IMG/VR virus record: IMGVR_UViG_3300021373_000910
Span: 1 to 53,467 of that record
Length of the DNA: 53,467 nucleotides
Source of the DNA: a virus
Reading direction: 5' to 3' (one strand)
Part shown: positions 15,359 through 28,216 of the stretch, in pieces
How positions within the stretch are numbered: the first letter of the stretch is position 1
Layout of the letters: every line of letters starts with the position of its first letter
Position numbers and translations under genes: made by a program
The notes under the pieces: model-generated
Told to the model about the DNA's origin: nothing
Database searches by the model: none
The model's input: only the letters and a program-made list of their open reading frames with translations

Positions 15359-16429
15359 ATGCAGATTGCCATTCTAAATGACACACATTGGGGTGCTCGT
15401 AATGACTCTAAAGCCTTTGCCGATTACTTTCATCGATTCTATGATGAGGTGTTCTTTCCTTATCTAATCGAAAACAATATCAAGACTATTTTTCACTTGG
15501 GAGATGTCTTTGATCGACGTAAGTATGTGAACTTTGTTACAGCCGCAAATTTTGAAAAGCATTTCATTCGTCCTTGTGCGGAGAACGATATCGAACTGTA
15601 TATGATTGCTGGAAATCATGATACGTTCTATAAAAATACGAACGAAGTCAATAGCATTCGACAGCTATATCAAAACACAGCGTATGATAACATTCATCTA
15701 TATTGGCAAGATCCTGTGGAGGTAGATTTAGACGGATGTAAAATTCTGCTCTCTCCGTGGATTTGTGCAGATAATGAAGAGTCTACAATGAAAGCACTTG
15801 AAGACACGTCTGCTCAAGTTGTTATGGGACACTTTGAAATCGCTGGCTATGAAATGATGAGAGGTATGTTGTGCGAGCATGGCCTCAATAAAGATATCTT
15901 TAGAAAGTTTGACTCCGTTTATTCTGGTCACTTTCATCATCCGTCTTCTCATGGAAACATTACGTATCTGGGTGCTCAATATGAGATGACCTGGTCAGAC
16001 TACGATCAAGTCCGTGGGTTTAGTGTTTTTGATACAGACACCCGTGAGATGAGCTACGTCAAGAATCCTCTCAAGATGTTTCATAAGCTATTCTATGACG
16101 ATACAGACATGACGATGGAAGATGTTGCGGCTCTCGACTTTAATGACTTGACAAACACGTATATAAAAGTTATAGTACAGACTAAGAGCAATCCATACTT
16201 TTTCGACATGTATTTGGATAAGATTCAAGAAGTAGGGCCTGCTGATATTAAAGTAGTTGAAGATCACAAGAACTTGGACGGCATCGATGAAGACGAACTT
16301 GTTGATGAGGCTCAAGATACGTTAACTATCTTGAAGAACTATATTGACAATATTGATGTGAACGGCAAGAAAGAAAAAATCGAAAAGCTTTTGGGTGAAT
16401 TGTATCATGAGGCGATAAGCATCGAATGA
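15359..16429 (+). CDS. 47: Recombination nuclease subunit gp47 (SbcD/Mre11-like)
   Basis: 356 residues (T4 gp47 339). Metallophosphoesterase subunit of the gp46/gp47 complex that resects DNA ends for recombination-dependent replication. Motifs: NDTHWG at 7-12, HLGDVFDRR about 46-54, AGNHDTF about 84-90, GHFEIAG and SGHFHH metal ligands. It overlaps the next small gene by four bases. Confidence 0.95.
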   Translation: MQIAILNDTHWGARNDSKAFADYFHRFYDEVFFPYLIENNIKTIFHLGDVFDRRKYVNFVTAANFEKHFIRPCAENDIELYMIAGNHDTFYKNTNEVNSIRQLYQNTAYDNIHLYWQDPVEVDLDGCKILLSPWICADNEESTMKALEDTSAQVVMGHFEIAGYEMMRGMLCEHGLNKDIFRKFDSVYSGHFHHPSSHGNITYLGAQYEMTWSDYDQVRGFSVFDTDTREMSYVKNPLKMFHKLFYDDTDMTMEDVAALDFNDLTNTYIKVIVQTKSNPYFFDMYLDKIQEVGPADIKVVEDHKNLDGIDEDELVDEAQDTLTILKNYIDNIDVNGKKEKIEKLLGELYHEAISIE

Positions 16430-16656
16430 GTAAAAAGTATATTCATGTAAATCAGCATAAAATTCGTGCAAACAAAAAGCATGGAACTGATGAGCCTGTG
16501 ATCACAATCAAAGAAGGCCGAAGTAACACATATTGTCATGAAGTCAAAATTCATGGTGAATCGGTAGTGCGATACGGAGGAAGCGACAAGCCTATTCTTT
16601 CGTGTGGTGCTCGTGTTGTTATTGAGACTGAAGCTGACATTGAGATTATTAGATGA
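16426..16656 (+). CDS. Small conserved protein between 47 and 46
   Basis: 76 residues, overlapping both neighbours (ATGA junctions). It starts with KYIHVNQHKIRANKK and is beta-rich. The same protein occurs, from memory, at this place in many marine T4-like phages. Tight coupling with genes 47 and 46 suggests a role with the nuclease complex or its DNA, but function is unknown. Confidence 0.75.
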   Translation: MSKKYIHVNQHKIRANKKHGTDEPVITIKEGRSNTYCHEVKIHGESVVRYGGSDKPILSCGARVVIETEADIEIIR

Positions 16657-18362
16657 TAGTATTCAAAACCGTTAGATGGAAGAATTTTCTATCTACAGGG
16701 AATGTATGGACGGAAGTCCAACTCAACAAGAATAAATCTACTCTTGTTGTGGGTGAGAACGGAGCGGGTAAGTCTACAATGCTAGACGCCATCTGCTTTG
16801 CTCTTTATGGCAAACCCTTTAGAAAGATCAACAAGCCTCAGTTGATGAACAGCATCAACAAAAAGGGACTTGAGACCGAGATTGAATTTACTAACAAGGG
16901 TAAAACATATCTTGTTCGTCGTGGTATCAAGCCAGCGATCTTTGAAATTTACTGTGATGGAAAGCTACTTAATCAAGACGCTGCAGCCAGAGATTATCAA
17001 GCGTATCTTGAAGATACGATTCTGAAGCTCAGTTACAAGTCTTTTGGACAGGTCGTTGTACTTGGATCTTCTACGTTTATTCCTTTCATGCAACTAAGTG
17101 CAAAAGATCGACGTGAGGTCATTGAGGATCTTCTTGATATTCAAATCTTCACTACGATGAACACGTTACTCAAAGAACATGTTTCTACAAACAAGAGTGG
17201 TATTGATGAAAACAAGTATCAGATTTCACTTGTAGAGAACAAGATTGACTCCGCAAAAGATCACAACGAGTCTATTCGCAAGTTGCATGAAAATAAAATT
17301 GACGATCTAAAGGAAAAGATCAAAGAACAAGTGTCGCAGGTTGAGGAACAGCGGGAACTAGCCGATACAATCGATGTTGAGATACAGTCACTTCTAGGAT
17401 CAATATCTGACAAGGATAGCATTAAGAAAAAGCTAAAGAATGCTCAAAACATTGATCAAGATCTAAAAAACAAGTTACGGACGTTGGTGAAAGATATCTC
17501 TTTCTATGAGAATCATGATGAATGTCCTACTTGTCAGCAAGACATTGATTCAGACTTTAAAGAAAGTCATGTCGGTGTGCAAAATAAGAAGCGTATTGAA
17601 CTCGAAAATGGCTTAGATTCTTTACAAGAAAAGTTAGACGAACTCAACAAGCGTATCGATGAGATATCAGATATTGAAGATGATATTAATAAAAAGCATT
17701 TGTTAATGAGAGAACATGTTGCGAATCAAAAATTTGCAATGAACTCGCTAAAAGGAATAAAAAATGATTTGGAGTCAGCAGAAAAAGAGGCTGAAGAAAT
17801 TGACACTACGACTATCGAAGCCATGCAGGACGAACTCAATGAAAAGATTGCAGAACAACAGGAGCTAATGGACAAGAGAGAAGTCTTGGCAATCGTTAGT
17901 ACAATGCTCAAGGATGGTGGCATTAAGACAAGGATTATCAAGCAGTATGTTCCAATCATGAACAAACTGATAAATAAGTACCTTGCTGCGATGGACTTTT
18001 TTGTTCAGTTTGAACTTGATGAAAGCTTTAACGAAACAATTAAGAGTCGATTCCGTGACGAGTTTTCTTACGCTTCTTTTTCTGAGGGTGAAAAACTTAG
18101 AATTGATCTGTCTTTGATGTTTACTTGGAGAGCGGTGTCTAAATTGAGAAACTCAGTAAGTACGAATCTACTAGTTATGGATGAGATCATGGATTCATCG
18201 CTGGATAGCTCTGGAACAGATGAATTCCTAAAGATCATTAATGAGTTGACAGCAGACTCTAATGTGTTTATAATTAGCCACAAGAGTGAACAACTTTATG
18301 AAAAATTTGAAAACACCCTTCGCTTTGAGAAGGTCAAGAACTTTAGTAGGTTAGTAGCATGA
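16653..18362 (+). CDS. 46: Recombination ATPase subunit gp46 (SbcC/Rad50-like)
   Basis: 569 residues (T4 gp46 560). Walker A GENGAGKS at 34-41; long coiled-coil arms from about 180 to 425; a zinc hook CPTC at 291-294; ABC signature FSEGEK near residue 473; Walker B with LLVMDEIMDSSLDSSG around 507-521. With gp47 it forms the end-processing complex. Its last four bases overlap the start of the methyltransferase gene, so the modification cassette is translated from the same message. Confidence 0.95.
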   Translation: MIVFKTVRWKNFLSTGNVWTEVQLNKNKSTLVVGENGAGKSTMLDAICFALYGKPFRKINKPQLMNSINKKGLETEIEFTNKGKTYLVRRGIKPAIFEIYCDGKLLNQDAAARDYQAYLEDTILKLSYKSFGQVVVLGSSTFIPFMQLSAKDRREVIEDLLDIQIFTTMNTLLKEHVSTNKSGIDENKYQISLVENKIDSAKDHNESIRKLHENKIDDLKEKIKEQVSQVEEQRELADTIDVEIQSLLGSISDKDSIKKKLKNAQNIDQDLKNKLRTLVKDISFYENHDECPTCQQDIDSDFKESHVGVQNKKRIELENGLDSLQEKLDELNKRIDEISDIEDDINKKHLLMREHVANQKFAMNSLKGIKNDLESAEKEAEEIDTTTIEAMQDELNEKIAEQQELMDKREVLAIVSTMLKDGGIKTRIIKQYVPIMNKLINKYLAAMDFFVQFELDESFNETIKSRFRDEFSYASFSEGEKLRIDLSLMFTWRAVSKLRNSVSTNLLVMDEIMDSSLDSSGTDEFLKIINELTADSNVFIISHKSEQLYEKFENTLRFEKVKNFSRLVA

Positions 18363-19576
18363 ATGAATACAAGCCATATACAGTCGAGGATGTAATCAAT
18401 GCGTCTAACGAAAATAGATTTAGTGTCATTAGTTGTTTTGCTGGCGGCGGTGGGAGTAGCACTGGATATCGTCTCGCTGGTGGAAAAGTTCTTTTAATCA
18501 ACGAGTTTGTTGAAGAAGCGATTGCGTCATACAAGCAAAACTATACTGACACGAAAATCCTAGTTGATGATATTAAGAAGTATACTGGAGAAGATTTTCT
18601 TTCTCTTGCAAATATTAAAAAGGGTGAGCTTGATATCCTAGATGGATCGCCTCCTTGTTCTGCGTTTTCTGTTTCGGGTAAGCGTGAGAAAGGCTGGGCT
18701 GGTTACGTAAAAGACACACGCAAGTCTTACTTCGATGAGAATGGAGACATTGTTCACGAAGGTGAGATAGTCGTACAGGATGGAGTAAAGAAATACTCAG
18801 ACAACAAGGTTCAAGAAGGTATTGAAGATCTGTTTTTAGAGTTTGTTCGGATTGCAAAAGATATTCAGCCAAAAGTGATCATCGCTGAGAACGTTAAGGG
18901 AATCACTATGGGCGAAGCAAAAGGTAAGCTTGTTGAGTTTATCAATGCATTTGAAGAAATTGGATACGAGGTTACGTATCAAGTGATGAATGCGGCTGAT
19001 TATGGCACAGCACAGAATCGTGAGCGCACCATCTTTGTTTGTATTCGACAAGATGTATTTGATTCAATTGATATGAATGTGCTAACGATGAATCGAGTGT
19101 TTCCAGAGAGAACCTCTGATAAGATTCCTATGGAAAGCGCACTATCTGGTATTGAAAATGATCCAGAAGAGATCCAAATGTTGCTCGACTACGTACAAAG
19201 AACCTATCAGAAAAAGTTTATCGAGAACTTACCATTTCGACCACATAAGACACTGAACCCAAGTCAGCCTGAGTTCGCTGATTGGAATCCAACAGGATCG
19301 TGTTTTAATATGAAACGGCCTTCTCCCTATCATCCTTGTCCAACACTAACTCAGTTAGGTCAACAGATGACTACTTCCGGAGTGTTTCACTATGATTATA
19401 ATCGTAAGTTTACGATACCAGAACTCAAGAGATTGATGGGATTGCCCGAGGACTATCAACTGACGGGAACCTTCAATCAGAAAGCGGAGCGAATTGGTCG
19501 AATGGTTGCTCCTAAGATGATGGCTGAACTTGCAAAGTCCGTCTATGAAAATGTGATAAAGCCTTACAATGCTTAG
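18359..19576 (+). CDS. C5-cytosine DNA methyltransferase family, motif X Asn replaced by Arg
   Basis: 405 residues. It transfers the activated carbon of an S-adenosylmethionine-type cofactor to cytosine C5. Motif I CFAGGGGSS at 26-34; motif IV SPPCSAF with catalytic Cys100; motif VI ENV at 177-179; motif VIII QNRER at 219-223; target-recognition region about 232-320; motif IX around 320-331; motif X at about 371-392. In motif X the common Gly-Asn is Gly380-Arg381 (ERIGRMVAP). Arg at this site may change cofactor choice. Start ATG overlaps the gp46 stop; the end overlaps the next gene by 8 bases. Part of a cassette with the CmoA-like gene at 20104. It may be an ordinary methyltransferase protecting phage DNA, or use carboxy-SAM; sequence alone cannot decide. 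Confidence 0.93.
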   Translation: MNEYKPYTVEDVINASNENRFSVISCFAGGGGSSTGYRLAGGKVLLINEFVEEAIASYKQNYTDTKILVDDIKKYTGEDFLSLANIKKGELDILDGSPPCSAFSVSGKREKGWAGYVKDTRKSYFDENGDIVHEGEIVVQDGVKKYSDNKVQEGIEDLFLEFVRIAKDIQPKVIIAENVKGITMGEAKGKLVEFINAFEEIGYEVTYQVMNAADYGTAQNRERTIFVCIRQDVFDSIDMNVLTMNRVFPERTSDKIPMESALSGIENDPEEIQMLLDYVQRTYQKKFIENLPFRPHKTLNPSQPEFADWNPTGSCFNMKRPSPYHPCPTLTQLGQQMTTSGVFHYDYNRKFTIPELKRLMGLPEDYQLTGTFNQKAERIGRMVAPKMMAELAKSVYENVIKPYNA

Positions 19577-20111
19577 TCAACGAATACGAGAGCATAATGG
19601 CGAAAACTGCTATGATGATTCTTATCAGAGAGACGCATTAGTAAATCTGATTCACACAGATAATGAATTTCGAGAGTACATAAAAGCGCAGTTTAATATC
19701 ACGGATGAAGCAAACACTAAGATATGCAAAGACCCGCTTGGCGATTACAAAGTAGATCTCGGCGTGAAGCAAAATGGTGAGTTGATCGGTCTGATAGAAG
19801 TCGATTACTATATCAAGTGGGATCCCGACTGGCCTGAGAACTATCGATGGTGTCACGCACTCGCAAGAAAGATTAAGTACTGGAAAGAAGAGGGACTACC
19901 CTACATAGGTTGTACACTTAACAAGCAAGGTGATAAAGCGCTCGTGAGTACAGATGAAATGCAAAGAAAGTATATGTGGACAATGAAGCGAAAGAAAGTT
20001 TATCTCAATAATGAATGGATAGACGATAAGTTTATAGAGATACCCTTACGAGTAGCAAAGAAGTTTGGTAACTGGACAGATGATGAACTGAGGAGAGTGA
20101 ACAATGCCTGA
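19569..20111 (+). CDS. Unknown cassette protein, possible PD-(D/E)XK-like fold
   Basis: 180 residues; not recognised. It overlaps the methyltransferase and the CmoA-like gene by 8 bases each, so all three are made together. The segment 59-84 has an Asp (D63), a hydrophobic strand, then Glu77-Val-Asp79 and Lys83, loosely like a restriction-nuclease core (D...ExK) but with Asp where Lys is usual. A conserved-looking WCHALARKI helix (94-102) follows. It might be a nuclease, an inactive DNA-binding relative, or an accessory factor for DNA modification. Confidence in the gene is high, in the fold low. Confidence 0.6.
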   Translation: MLSQRIREHNGENCYDDSYQRDALVNLIHTDNEFREYIKAQFNITDEANTKICKDPLGDYKVDLGVKQNGELIGLIEVDYYIKWDPDWPENYRWCHALARKIKYWKEEGLPYIGCTLNKQGDKALVSTDEMQRKYMWTMKRKKVYLNNEWIDDKFIEIPLRVAKKFGNWTDDELRRVNNA

Positions 20112-20811
20112 TTTTACCTTTGCACATAGAGACGAAGGATTCGATGATCATATCGACAAATCTATTCGTGGCTATAGTGTTTTACATGATGATATAGTGA
20201 ATCTTAGTAGATACTTTGTTGAAGACGATACAAACGTAATTGATCTTGGTTGTTCAACAGGCAAGACTATTCATGCGATGATGAGACAAAACAACGAATT
20301 TGCTCCCAACGCAACATACGTGGGAATTGAGTATGCTGATGGATTTATTCCTGCTCTCGACGAACGTGAAAAGCAAATGCGTGAAGAGTTTGGTGGTGTC
20401 GAAGGAAAGGTTGAGTTTCATATTGGCGACATTCGCAACTATGATTTTGTGAATGCAAATCTAATCACTTCGATCTTCACCCTACAATTCATGCCCCCCA
20501 CATCTCGTCGTGATGTACTCAAGAAGATTTACAATTCACTGAACAAGAATGGTGCGTTTATCTTTGCTGAGAAAACGGTTGCTCAAGATCCAAGACTACA
20601 AGAAATGATGACGTTTACATATTACGATTACAAGCGGGAAAACTTCTCAGACAAAGACATTTTGGACAAAGAACAAACTCTTCGAAATATGTTGAAGCCA
20701 ATGACATGGAAAGAAATACAATCTGCTCTCGCTACGGCGGGATTTGGGTTTGACAAAATTCAACCGTTCTGGCAGAATCATTTATTTGTCGGAGCTATTG
20801 CCATCAAGTGA
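20104..20811 (+). CDS. CmoA-like carboxy-SAM synthase family protein
   Basis: 235 residues (E. coli CmoA 247). CmoA converts SAM and prephenate to carboxy-SAM, normally used by CmoB to modify U34 of tRNA. Family marks: SIRGYS at 20-25 (E. coli SVPGYS), SAM site DLGCSTG at 47-53, GDIRN at 108-112, the very characteristic FTLQFMPP at 125-132, AEK at 155-157, and YDYKREN at 174-180. Glu190 falls where I recall Arg199 of E. coli CmoA, a carboxylate contact, while Arg194 lies one helical turn later; activity is therefore uncertain. No CmoB gene is in the window. It could supply carboxy-SAM to the neighbouring DNA methyltransferase or boost host tRNA modification. Confidence 0.82.
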   Translation: MPDFTFAHRDEGFDDHIDKSIRGYSVLHDDIVNLSRYFVEDDTNVIDLGCSTGKTIHAMMRQNNEFAPNATYVGIEYADGFIPALDEREKQMREEFGGVEGKVEFHIGDIRNYDFVNANLITSIFTLQFMPPTSRRDVLKKIYNSLNKNGAFIFAEKTVAQDPRLQEMMTFTYYDYKRENFSDKDILDKEQTLRNMLKPMTWKEIQSALATAGFGFDKIQPFWQNHLFVGAIAIK

Positions 20812-20826: not shown

Positions 20827-20859
20827 CTCTTTTAAATCTTGAAAAAAGGATTATATCTT

Positions 20860-21510
20860 ATGCAATTTAGTGACAATACAATTTCAGTACTTAAAAATTT
20901 CTCTCAGATCAATCCCAGTATTATGTTTCGATCTGGAAGTGTCTTGAGAACTATCTCGCCCCAGAAGACAGTCATGGCTGCAGCCGAAATCGACGAATCA
21001 TTCGAGAAGTCAGTCGGCGTATACAATCTCGGTCGTTTTCTGGCAACCCTTTCCTTGTTTGATGAGCCGGAGATTGCACTTGAGGAAACTCAGTTTGTCA
21101 TCGGTGATGCGAAGAGTACTGTTAAGTATACGTACACTTCAGAGAACATGATTGTTTCTCCACCCGATAAGGATATTAATGTTCCTGATATTGTTGCTGA
21201 CATCAACATCACTTGGGAAGAAATCAAGAAGGTTCGAGACGCTGCAGCTGTCCTTGGACTTCCTGAGATTTCTTTCTCTAGTTCTGGTCGAGGTGTCTTA
21301 CTTTCAGCCGTCGATAGCAAAAACTCTACAGCGGATACTTTCAGCATTATCTCCGCACCCGACGAAACGTTTGAGCCATTTGATATGATTATCAAAACAG
21401 ACTATCTCAAACTGCTGGAGCAAGACTACCAGGTAGCCCTTTCGACCAAGGGAATGGCACACTTCCGTTCTAATGGAGTCAACTACTGGATCGCAATCGA
21501 ATCTCGGTAG
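20860..21510 (+). CDS. 45: Sliding clamp gp45
   Basis: 216 residues from ATG 20860, which has a good AAAAAAGGA ribosome site. A TTG seven codons upstream (20839) lies at that ribosome site and is rejected. T4 gp45 is 228 residues and begins with a similar block; here FSDNTISVLKNFSQINPSIM (residues 3-22). The trimeric ring clamp gives the polymerase processivity and activates gp55-dependent late transcription. Loading needs gp44/gp62, both encoded downstream. Confidence 0.93.
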   Translation: MQFSDNTISVLKNFSQINPSIMFRSGSVLRTISPQKTVMAAAEIDESFEKSVGVYNLGRFLATLSLFDEPEIALEETQFVIGDAKSTVKYTYTSENMIVSPPDKDINVPDIVADINITWEEIKKVRDAAAVLGLPEISFSSSGRGVLLSAVDSKNSTADTFSIISAPDETFEPFDMIIKTDYLKLLEQDYQVALSTKGMAHFRSNGVNYWIAIESR

Positions 21511-26237: not shown

Positions 26238-27179
26238 ATGCAAGACAACTTTATTTGGGTTGAACGATATCGACCTAAAACAATTCAAGATACTATCTTA
26301 CCCGACTCTCTGAAAAAAACATTTCAGCAATTTGTCGATCAAAATAATGTGCCCAATCTTCTATTGACTGGTCGTGCTGGTATTGGCAAGACTACTGTGG
26401 CCAAAGCTATGCTTGAAGAGATTGGCGCTGACTATATTACAATCAACGGTTCGATGAATGGTAACATCGATACTCTACGTGTTGAAATCGCTAACTTTGC
26501 TTCTAGTGTTTCTTTTTCCGGCGGCCGCAAGTATGTCATTCTAGACGAAGCTGACTATCTGAATGCAAACTCTACTCAGCCTGCACTTAGAAACTTTATG
26601 GAAGAGTTTTCAAAAAACTGCGGCTTTATCCTAACTTGTAACTTTAAGAACCGTATCATTGAGCCTTTACACTCTCGTTGTAGTGTAGTTGAATTCAATG
26701 TAACTGGTGCTGATAAAACCAAACTCGCCGGACAGTTTTTTAAGCGATGCTGTAAAATACTGGAAACTGAGGATCTTGAATATGATGAAAAATCTGTTGC
26801 TGAACTTATCAAAACTTATTTTCCTGATTGGCGTCGAGTCCTTAATGAACTACAGCGTTATTCTGCTACTGGCCGTATTGATGCTGGTATATTAGTATCA
26901 ACTTCAGGCGAGTCTATTGATGACCTGATTAGTAGGATGCGTGAAAGAAACTTCACAGATGTTCGTAAGTGGGTTGCTGAGAATTCTCATGTTGAGTCAG
27001 CGGTACTCTACCGCCAACTCTATGATGTGCTACCCAGCAAACTCAAGTCTACTCAAAATGTAGCTGACGCAATTGTGATTCTCGCTGAGTATCAGTACAA
27101 AGAAGCGTTCGTTGCAAACTCCGAGATAAATAGAGTAGCGGCTCTCGCAACTCTTATGGCGGAGATGGAGTGGAAATGA
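26238..27179 (+). CDS. 44: Clamp loader ATPase subunit gp44
   Basis: 313 residues (T4 gp44 319). AAA+ ATPase that opens and loads the gp45 clamp with gp62. Walker A GRAGIGKT at 45-52, Walker B DEAD at 103-106, sensor and SRC motif LHSRCSVVEF around 148-157. It heads an overlapping run of genes to 29661 that also includes gp62 and RegA, the order found in T4-like phages. Confidence 0.95.
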   Translation: MQDNFIWVERYRPKTIQDTILPDSLKKTFQQFVDQNNVPNLLLTGRAGIGKTTVAKAMLEEIGADYITINGSMNGNIDTLRVEIANFASSVSFSGGRKYVILDEADYLNANSTQPALRNFMEEFSKNCGFILTCNFKNRIIEPLHSRCSVVEFNVTGADKTKLAGQFFKRCCKILETEDLEYDEKSVAELIKTYFPDWRRVLNELQRYSATGRIDAGILVSTSGESIDDLISRMRERNFTDVRKWVAENSHVESAVLYRQLYDVLPSKLKSTQNVADAIVILAEYQYKEAFVANSEINRVAALATLMAEMEWK

Positions 27180-27392
27180 ATGGGCATATGGGCTAAGATA
27201 AAAAGCTGGATCTTTGGAATACACTGTCTTTTGTGTAGAACAAAACTCGATCCCACGAGTGAGTATGTCATAGTCCAATATAGGTGTCTAGATGGCTATG
27301 ATAATCTTTATCTTTGTACTGAGTGTGCAAAAGATTTTGATGAAGCCGCATTTGATAGCAATACAGATCCGTCCGCTTTCATTGATATATGA
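27180..27392 (+). CDS. Small zinc-ribbon-like protein
   Basis: 70 residues; ATG directly follows the gp44 stop. Two Cys pairs, CLLC (about 16-19) and CTEC (about 46-49), separated by a strand-rich segment, look like a one-zinc ribbon. Overlaps the next gene by four bases. Not recognised. Confidence 0.6.
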   Translation: MGIWAKIKSWIFGIHCLLCRTKLDPTSEYVIVQYRCLDGYDNLYLCTECAKDFDEAAFDSNTDPSAFIDI

Positions 27393-28216
27393 AGTATGTA
27401 ACTCTGCTTACAGCTATTGCGATAGCGGCAGTAGCGGGATACTTCTCTATCATTGGATTGTCTACAATCTTTGCTGGTGCTTTCTGGGCTGTTGTTATTA
27501 TGGCGACAGTGCTAGAGATAGGTAAACTTGTTACTGCCGCATATCTTCATCTAGAGTGGAAAGATATAAGTACATGGATTAGGACTTATCTAATATCAGC
27601 AGTATTTGTCCTGATGATTATCACTTCAATGGGTATCTTTGGATATCTATCGAAGGCTCACTTAGAGCAGACAATAAATCAAGGTGGTAATAATGAATTA
27701 CTTATCAGCGGCCTCGAGAGAAAGATTGAAAGACAGCAATCGATCATCGATGACTCCGAAACGGTCTTGGCGCAACTCGACTCTGCGGTTGAAATACTGC
27801 AAGACTATGACCGAATTAGAGGACCTGATGGAGCAATTGCGGTTCGGAAGGCGCAAGCAGAGGAAAGGACAGAACTCAACAGAACAATCGGATTGGCGTA
27901 TGATCAGATTGCAGGATTCCAAGAACAACTTCTGCCCCTGCAGAAACAAACTCTTGAACTTGAAGCAGAAATCGGCCCAATCAAATACATAGCAGAACTA
28001 ATTTACGGAGAGAACTATGACATCGATAATGCGGTTCGTTTCGTTATTCTTTTACTTGTGTTTGTTTTCGACCCCTTGGCGATTATACTATTGATAGTAT
28101 CGACAGCAATGTTCAAACGTGATATCATTGCTAAACCCGAAGTAAAAAAAAAGTTGAAGACGGACAACTCAATGAATCCGTTAGTGAGCGAACAACAAAT
28201 TATGGTGATGGAATGA
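27389..28216 (+). CDS. Membrane protein with coiled-coil, in replication operon
   Basis: 275 residues. Three predicted transmembrane helices in the first 85 residues, a helical coiled-coil region (about 105-200, rich in Glu, Gln and Leu, presumably soluble), and one further long hydrophobic helix at about 215-240 with a basic tail. I recall a similar membrane protein next to gp44/gp62 in marine T4-like phages. It overlaps gp62 by four bases. Function is unknown; anchoring of the replication complex to the inner membrane is a possible role. Confidence 0.75.
   Translation: MKYVTLLTAIAIAAVAGYFSIIGLSTIFAGAFWAVVIMATVLEIGKLVTAAYLHLEWKDISTWIRTYLISAVFVLMIITSMGIFGYLSKAHLEQTINQGGNNELLISGLERKIERQQSIIDDSETVLAQLDSAVEILQDYDRIRGPDGAIAVRKAQAEERTELNRTIGLAYDQIAGFQEQLLPLQKQTLELEAEIGPIKYIAELIYGENYDIDNAVRFVILLLVFVFDPLAIILLIVSTAMFKRDIIAKPEVKKKLKTDNSMNPLVSEQQIMVME

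Follow-up and report, generated by a model that had tools for sequence, protein, structure and literature searches.

What does a virus gain from a DNA cytosine methyltransferase gene that is tied, through overlapping reading frames, to a gene resembling the carboxy-S-adenosylmethionine (Cx-SAM) synthase CmoA? This question is raised by a three-gene cassette at positions 18359-20811 of a 53,467-nucleotide stretch of viral DNA (IMG/VR record IMGVR_UViG_3300021373_000910, positions 1 to 53,467), the whole of which is referred to here as the window. The cassette encodes, all on the plus strand, a C5-cytosine methyltransferase homologue (CmoX), a 180-residue protein (MID, for the middle gene) and a CmoA homologue; each successive pair of genes shares 8 bases, and the end of the upstream gene 46 overlaps the start of CmoX by 4 bases. 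The best reading is that of a carboxymethylation cassette whose third gene can be either a ligase or a nuclease-like protein, and a probability of roughly 0.8 is given to the overall explanation, i.e., a translationally coupled CmoX-MID-CmoA phage operon that carboxymethylates the cytosine of phage DNA.

An earlier note, made from the sequence alone, had described three overlapping genes at these coordinates, between genes 46 and 45 of a T4-like virus, had identified a C5-cytosine methyltransferase with an Arg in motif X and a CmoA-like protein, and had found no CmoB in the window, all of which was confirmed. The position of the alpha-glucosyltransferase gene of T4, to which the same note drew a parallel, provides only a loose analogy.

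The carboxymethyltransferase and its Cx-SAM synthase

The base proposed for this locus, 5-carboxymethylcytosine (5cxmC), was taken by the earlier note to have no known natural phage example, a view overtaken by the work of Yang et al. (Nature Communications, December 2025; PMC12783734), in which CmoX and CmoA of Synechococcus phage S-B43 install 5cxmC in DNA. The S-B43 CmoA produces Cx-SAM, CmoX moves the carboxymethyl group from it onto cytosine C5 at GC sites, and a ligase, CmoY, attaches glycine to 5cxmC, the glycine amide being the form present in S-B43 virion DNA; proof of the pathway came from in vitro work, from E. coli and from virion DNA (PMC12783734). Given this, the window is an independent example of a published base, in a sharper context.

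The window CmoX belongs to the C5-methyltransferase family (PF00145, E 1.8e-52), and its closest solved structure, by far, is that of SpCmoX from S-B43 (PDB 8YF3, E 1.5e-110), with which it shares about 47-50% identity. All nine residues named in the 8YF3 paper are kept (F27, E49, F50, D71, the SPPC motif at 97-100 and R381). Motif X reads RIGR381MV, with Arg where Asn is usual, and this Arg aligns with SpCmoX Arg350, which touches the Cx-SAM carboxylate (PMC12783734). The use of Cx-SAM on DNA cytosine, as the earlier note supposed, is proven for close homologues, every listed ligand residue of which is kept here, and, as judged by this strong homology, the core chemistry of CmoX and CmoA yielding 5cxmC in phage DNA is right and already published.

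The enzyme might instead produce ordinary 5-methylcytosine, with CmoA as an unrelated neighbour, as its family membership would allow and as homologous enzymes devoid of the Arg, such as one bearing Leu (L087), would suggest. This is very improbable, given that the motif X Arg is retained in nearly all of the 113 distinct CmoX sequences surveyed from IMG/VR and GenBank phages, that wild-type SpCmoX, with the same Arg, uses Cx-SAM exclusively and refuses S-adenosylmethionine (SAM; PMC12783734), and that CmoA is a constant overlapping neighbour. The GpC content is ordinary (observed/expected 1.07) and uninformative as a sign of modification.

The third protein of the cassette matches TIGR00740 (E 1.4e-38) and the structures 1im8 (E 2.1e-27) and 4gek (E 2.6e-25) of the PDB, and it is called CmoA because it is similar to the proven phage enzyme SpCmoA (53-54% identity). 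The association of this methyltransferase clade with CmoA-like genes, to which the earlier note had looked for support, was found in most of the 113 loci, where CmoA adjoins CmoX, and the pairing is not due to chance. Another possibility is that CmoA boosts the host tRNA wobble modification cmo5U34 (uridine-5-oxyacetic acid) for the benefit of the phage, and the virus does encode a tRNA-Thr(UGU), a kind of tRNA that bears cmo5U in E. coli. However, CmoB (PF08003) was found neither in the window nor in the two longer records of the same virus on which absences were checked, one of 143,934 bp (144 kb; 99.92% identical to the window along its entire length) and one of 130,810 bp (131 kb; with CmoX and MID identical to those of the window). 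In addition, CmoA is embedded in CmoX operons in dozens of viruses, and the S-B43 CmoA, which is ten times faster than that of E. coli, serves DNA modification (PMC12783734), so that a role in the tRNA pathway is improbable in the extreme.

Other CmoX homologues were observed in the survey. Tandem CmoX pairs (Y-X-X-A) occur in several viruses (L069, L073-L083), perhaps with two sequence specificities, and the second copies of L069 and L073-L076 share about 52-54% identity with the window CmoX. Six loci (L213, L215, L218, L235, L241 and L244) have a CmoX with the motif X Arg but lack CmoA over about 5 kb of whichever flank or flanks are present, and these may use a host or distant CmoA. In the 40-kb Moraxella phage Mcat8 (L088:6001-7708), outside the T4-like group, a CmoX homologue that has the Arg of motif X is followed by a distant CmoA-like gene. 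The Leu-bearing protein, from Methylophilales phage Melnitz-3 (L087:4010-5227), is not accepted as a carboxymethyltransferase on the evidence so far, given its Leu; a RimK-like ATP-grasp gene lies upstream, three genes away, and Asn_synthase was not found in the Melnitz-3 genome.

Loss of CmoY and exchange of the third gene

A CmoY-type Asn_synthase ligase (PF00733) was found neither in the window nor in the 144-kb and 131-kb records, and the end product of this virus may therefore be free 5cxmC; from its gene content, the virus is not classed as a member of the glycine-hypermodifying CmoA-CmoX-CmoY group. The earlier note had proposed 5cxmC as the base carried by the phage DNA; this core reading stands by homology, while in S-B43 the final base is the glycine amide. 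In the flanked set of 66 loci, defined by the presence of CmoA and of 2 kb or more to either side of CmoX and scored for CmoY on stop-to-stop frames, the ligase was present in 52 and absent from 14. The nearest relatives of the window CmoX are either CmoY-positive (Y-X-A-H) or short CmoY-negative pieces, and the loss of CmoY in the window lineage is therefore recent. In two CmoY-less loci (L232:2342-3151 and L238:4102-4932), a family of 270-277 residues with no Pfam match lies directly upstream of CmoX and is possibly another base-modifying enzyme.

The middle gene, which the earlier note left as an unknown, is indeed an orphan, with no usable match in Pfam, PHROGs or PADLOC, no tblastn match in GenBank phages and none in bacterial genomes, and a degenerate DNA motif scan returned only the virus of the window and chance matches. 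It is not mere filler, being linked to CmoY-less cassettes and probably of the PD-(D/E)xK fold. Its sole homologue in the CmoX collection, MID2 (L242:7314-7862; blastp E 1e-16, 31% over 133 residues), is found 0.5 kb downstream of a distant CmoX-CmoA pair, in a virus also represented by a 43.5-kb record, and CmoY was found in neither of these two records.

The comparison of L242 with two syntenic loci of 90-94% DNA identity (L234 and L239), which carry CmoY and no MID, is close to a natural experiment. The order in the latter is serine hydroxymethyltransferase (SHMT)-(ParB-like, in L234)-CmoY-CmoX-CmoA-deoxycytidylate (dCMP) deaminase-uvsX, in which the ParB-like label was given by eye, with no Pfam match, and that of L242 is SHMT-CmoX-CmoA-dCMP deaminase-MID2-uvsX, so that MID2 is cleanly inserted (about 561 bp) and CmoY is cleanly missing. 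In L222 (563-1988), whose CmoX-CmoA region shares about 91-93% identity with that of viruses carrying CmoY or MID2, a glutaminase-type asparagine synthetase occupies the CmoY slot. Given the swap in L242 and the synthetase in L222, the third component is exchanged around a constant CmoX-CmoA pair.

Mobile nuclease genes are common in the replication regions of phages, and MID could be an accessory passenger of this type, i.e., a homing-like or cargo gene with no role in carboxymethylation, as might also be suggested by the insertion of MID2 elsewhere in its cassette, behind the gene for dCMP deaminase. On the other hand, the only relatives recovered by MID-seeded scans adjoin CmoX-CmoA, the window MID shares 8 bases with each of its two neighbours, CmoX and CmoA, and the gain coincides with the loss of CmoY two times, which makes a mere passenger unlikely.

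The fold of MID

The L242 homologue weakly matches (E 0.04-0.6) a protein of 149 residues from marine Zobellviridae, which carries the motif NVDLVSQKNG...FNEVEVKTAWKxDWP...RK. When the MID+L242 profile was aligned by hhalign with this phage D..ExK family, a probability of 96.2% was obtained (E 2.3e-9), against control values of 0.5% for DenB and 0.3% for CmoA, all of these being pairwise values without database correction. The identification of MID as DenB (endonuclease IV) was rejected on this basis.

An AlphaFold2 model built from a 44-sequence alignment, which replaced a discarded single-sequence model (predicted local distance difference test, pLDDT, 41), has the topology a-a-b-b-b-a-b-b, which fits the a-b-b-b-a-b core, although with pLDDT of only 56 overall and 76-85 over residues 21-80. 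The top 50 PDB matches in Foldseek were mostly PD-(D/E)xK proteins, including Hjc, the SPARDA nuclease, tRNA-splicing endonuclease, I-Ssp6803I, BstEII, HincII and RecU. Taken together, the profile and model comparisons make it likely that MID belongs to the PD-(D/E)xK fold. The protein retains Asp63 and the acidic residues Glu77 and Asp79, and in the next helix Arg100-Lys101 is invariant across the alignment; this pair could supply the charge of the lost motif lysine, or MID may bind DNA without cutting it.

Nuclease-like genes beside CmoX and CmoA

In a further locus, L071, the gene lodged between CmoX and CmoA, with similar overlaps, encodes a different protein, a 186-residue DenB homologue (phrog_1360, E 1.1e-8; tblastn against annotated denB genes, E 3e-5) that conserves D85, E95 and K97; CmoY was not found in its 27.7-kb record. 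DenB, the endonuclease IV of T4, is a deoxycytidine-specific enzyme of the PD-(D/E)xK type (PMC12405507), which targets unmodified cytosine DNA, and a phage that carries it has for this reason been argued to use a non-canonical base (PMC8056088). All three loci with MID or DenB are devoid of CmoY (hypergeometric P 0.008, a post hoc value from three loci).

These loci also bear on the possibility that MID is not a nuclease at all, and is rather a functional stand-in for CmoY in some other step of base chemistry, for instance by drawing a host enzyme to 5cxmC or by itself occupying the base. The replacement of CmoY by MID in otherwise near-identical cassettes, the loss of the motif lysine and the glutaminase-type synthetase found in the same slot in L222 would all agree with a stand-in, while the nuclease-superfamily fold favoured for MID and the DenB homologue in the equivalent slot of L071 speak against it and leave it rather improbable.

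A second kind of neighbour is formed by ParB-like (ParB/GmrSD_N-like) proteins, present in twelve CmoX-locus sequences (L019:8348-9748 and eleven others), most of them with a conserved C-terminal HNH motif, GGHIxxHS..GG..NL....HN; in the flanked set, all nine co-occur with CmoY. Neighbours with a ParB domain were noted by the discoverers of the pathway, who gave them no role, and nuclease genes are not mentioned in their text (PMC12783734). The ParB-HNH proteins of the cassettes probably account for some or all of the "ParBc" proteins in that study, and their HNH ends offer a first hypothesis for their role. The virus of the window has, away from the cassette, a GmrSD_N (E 5.4e-6) and HNH-like protein (L090:6560-7906, minus strand; 26560-27906 of the 144-kb record) that is homologous to this family (hidden Markov model E 4e-14).

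Proposed mechanism

In the translationally coupled CmoX-MID-CmoA operon, CmoA would convert SAM and prephenate into Cx-SAM, after which Cys100 of CmoX would attack cytosine C6 while Arg381 grips the carboxylate, and the carboxymethyl group would be transferred to C5. The formation of 5cxmC in this manner, as shown for the homologues, is very probable here. With CmoY missing from the 144-kb record, the carboxylate would remain free or serve another enzyme, a view towards which the evidence leans, and MID would have been gained upon the loss of CmoY. The most likely job of MID, put forward tentatively, would be a 5cxmC-dependent action on DNA, in which unmodified (host) DNA is cut or bound and phage DNA is spared. 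A wider and more doubtful idea is that 5cxmC acts as a self-mark for phage nucleases, the free carboxylate of the CmoY-less cassettes shielding phage DNA while MID, or the DenB of L071, attacks the unmodified DNA of the host or of competitors. Such a system would conceivably be a self-contained counterpart of the hydroxymethylcytosine and DenB of T4, and one side of a swap between a decorated (CmoY) and a bare (MID or DenB) base.

Several points weigh against this explanation. The score of the window CmoA (132.9 bits) is below the TIGR00740 equivalog cut-off of 193.3, a shortfall that argues against the label of a canonical bacterial CmoA of the tRNA pathway. The records of the virus are not proven complete, and a ligase could lie in the missing sequence. 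The exchange itself is represented by no more than two lineages with MID and a single one with DenB, its link to the loss of CmoY is post hoc, and eleven other CmoY-less flanked loci have neither MID nor DenB. The model of MID is weak (overall pLDDT 56; best PDB match E 1.5e-3, template modelling score 0.30) and the catalytic D..(D/E)xK motif is incomplete, its lysine being Tyr81 in MID and Met in L242, so that MID may not cut DNA.

The new element is a CmoY-less variant of the pathway with an exchangeable nuclease-fold third gene, which allows a direct test for free 5cxmC as the end product in virions. Near-identical viruses carry the same CmoX-CmoA pair with a glycine-type ligase, with a glutaminase-type asparagine synthetase, or with a nuclease-fold protein and no ligase, which implies more than one use for the carboxymethyl mark.

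Features of the locus

Table 1. Cassette features and flanking genes, in window coordinates.
Feature	Position	Strand	Basis
gp47	15359-16429		Metallophos match
gp46-like recombination nuclease subunit, upstream boundary	16653-18362	+	AAA_23/SMC_N
CmoX, DNA cytosine C5-carboxymethyltransferase homologue, 405 aa	18359-19576	+	PF00145; PDB 8YF3
Cys100 codon, catalytic nucleophile of the SPPC motif (SpCmoX Cys98)	18656-18658	+	Alignment
Arg381 codon, motif X (SpCmoX Arg350; Asn304 in M.HhaI)	19499-19501	+	Alignment; role from PMC12783734
MID, middle gene, 180 aa, probable PD-(D/E)xK fold	19569-20111	+	Homologue in second cassette; hhalign; AlphaFold2 and Foldseek
CmoA, carboxy-SAM synthase homologue, 235 aa	20104-20811	+	TIGR00740; identity to SpCmoA
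gp45 sliding clamp, downstream boundary	20839-21510	+	PF09116 (gp45-slide_C), E 1e-9; start may be ATG at about 20860

The virus also has a permuted transfer-messenger RNA gene (L089:14217-14636, minus strand; Rfam RF04321, E 1.1e-17), with the ARAGORN tag AANDDYYGDVALAA, near genes for tRNA-Arg(UCU), tRNA-Asn(GUU) and tRNA-Thr(UGU).

Comparison with known systems

The closest known system is the CmoA-CmoX-CmoY pathway of S-B43 (PMC12783734; PDB 8YF3), with which the window shares the catalytic and Cx-SAM-binding residues of CmoX, the adjacent CmoA and the T4-like context, and from which it differs by the absence of CmoY in 144 kb, by the 180-residue PD-(D/E)xK-like protein in the operon and by the order X-MID-A. 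The engineered carboxymethyltransferase M.MpeI N374K, cited in PMC12783734, similarly owes its use of Cx-SAM to a basic residue at the corresponding place in motif X, although the Arg of the window is natural and paired with a phage CmoA, and the site of the S-B43 CmoX is GC rather than CG.

In the case of MID, the VDL...W..-W-P..RK core is shared with the D..ExK protein of about 149 residues of marine Zobellviridae (SIO1, ICBM2 gp27 and P12053L gp33), in which, unlike MID and its L242 homologue, the motif lysine (ExK) is kept, and which was not seen in the surveyed CmoX loci. Finally, in T4, hydroxymethylcytosine is combined with the degradation of host DNA by DenA and DenB (PMC8056088, PMC12405507). 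Unlike that system, 5cxmC is made from Cx-SAM after replication, on the DNA itself, and the sequence of MID shows no detectable homology to DenB; in both cases, however, a modified cytosine stands beside a gene of a nuclease superfamily, and in one relative, L071, a true DenB homologue separates CmoX from CmoA.

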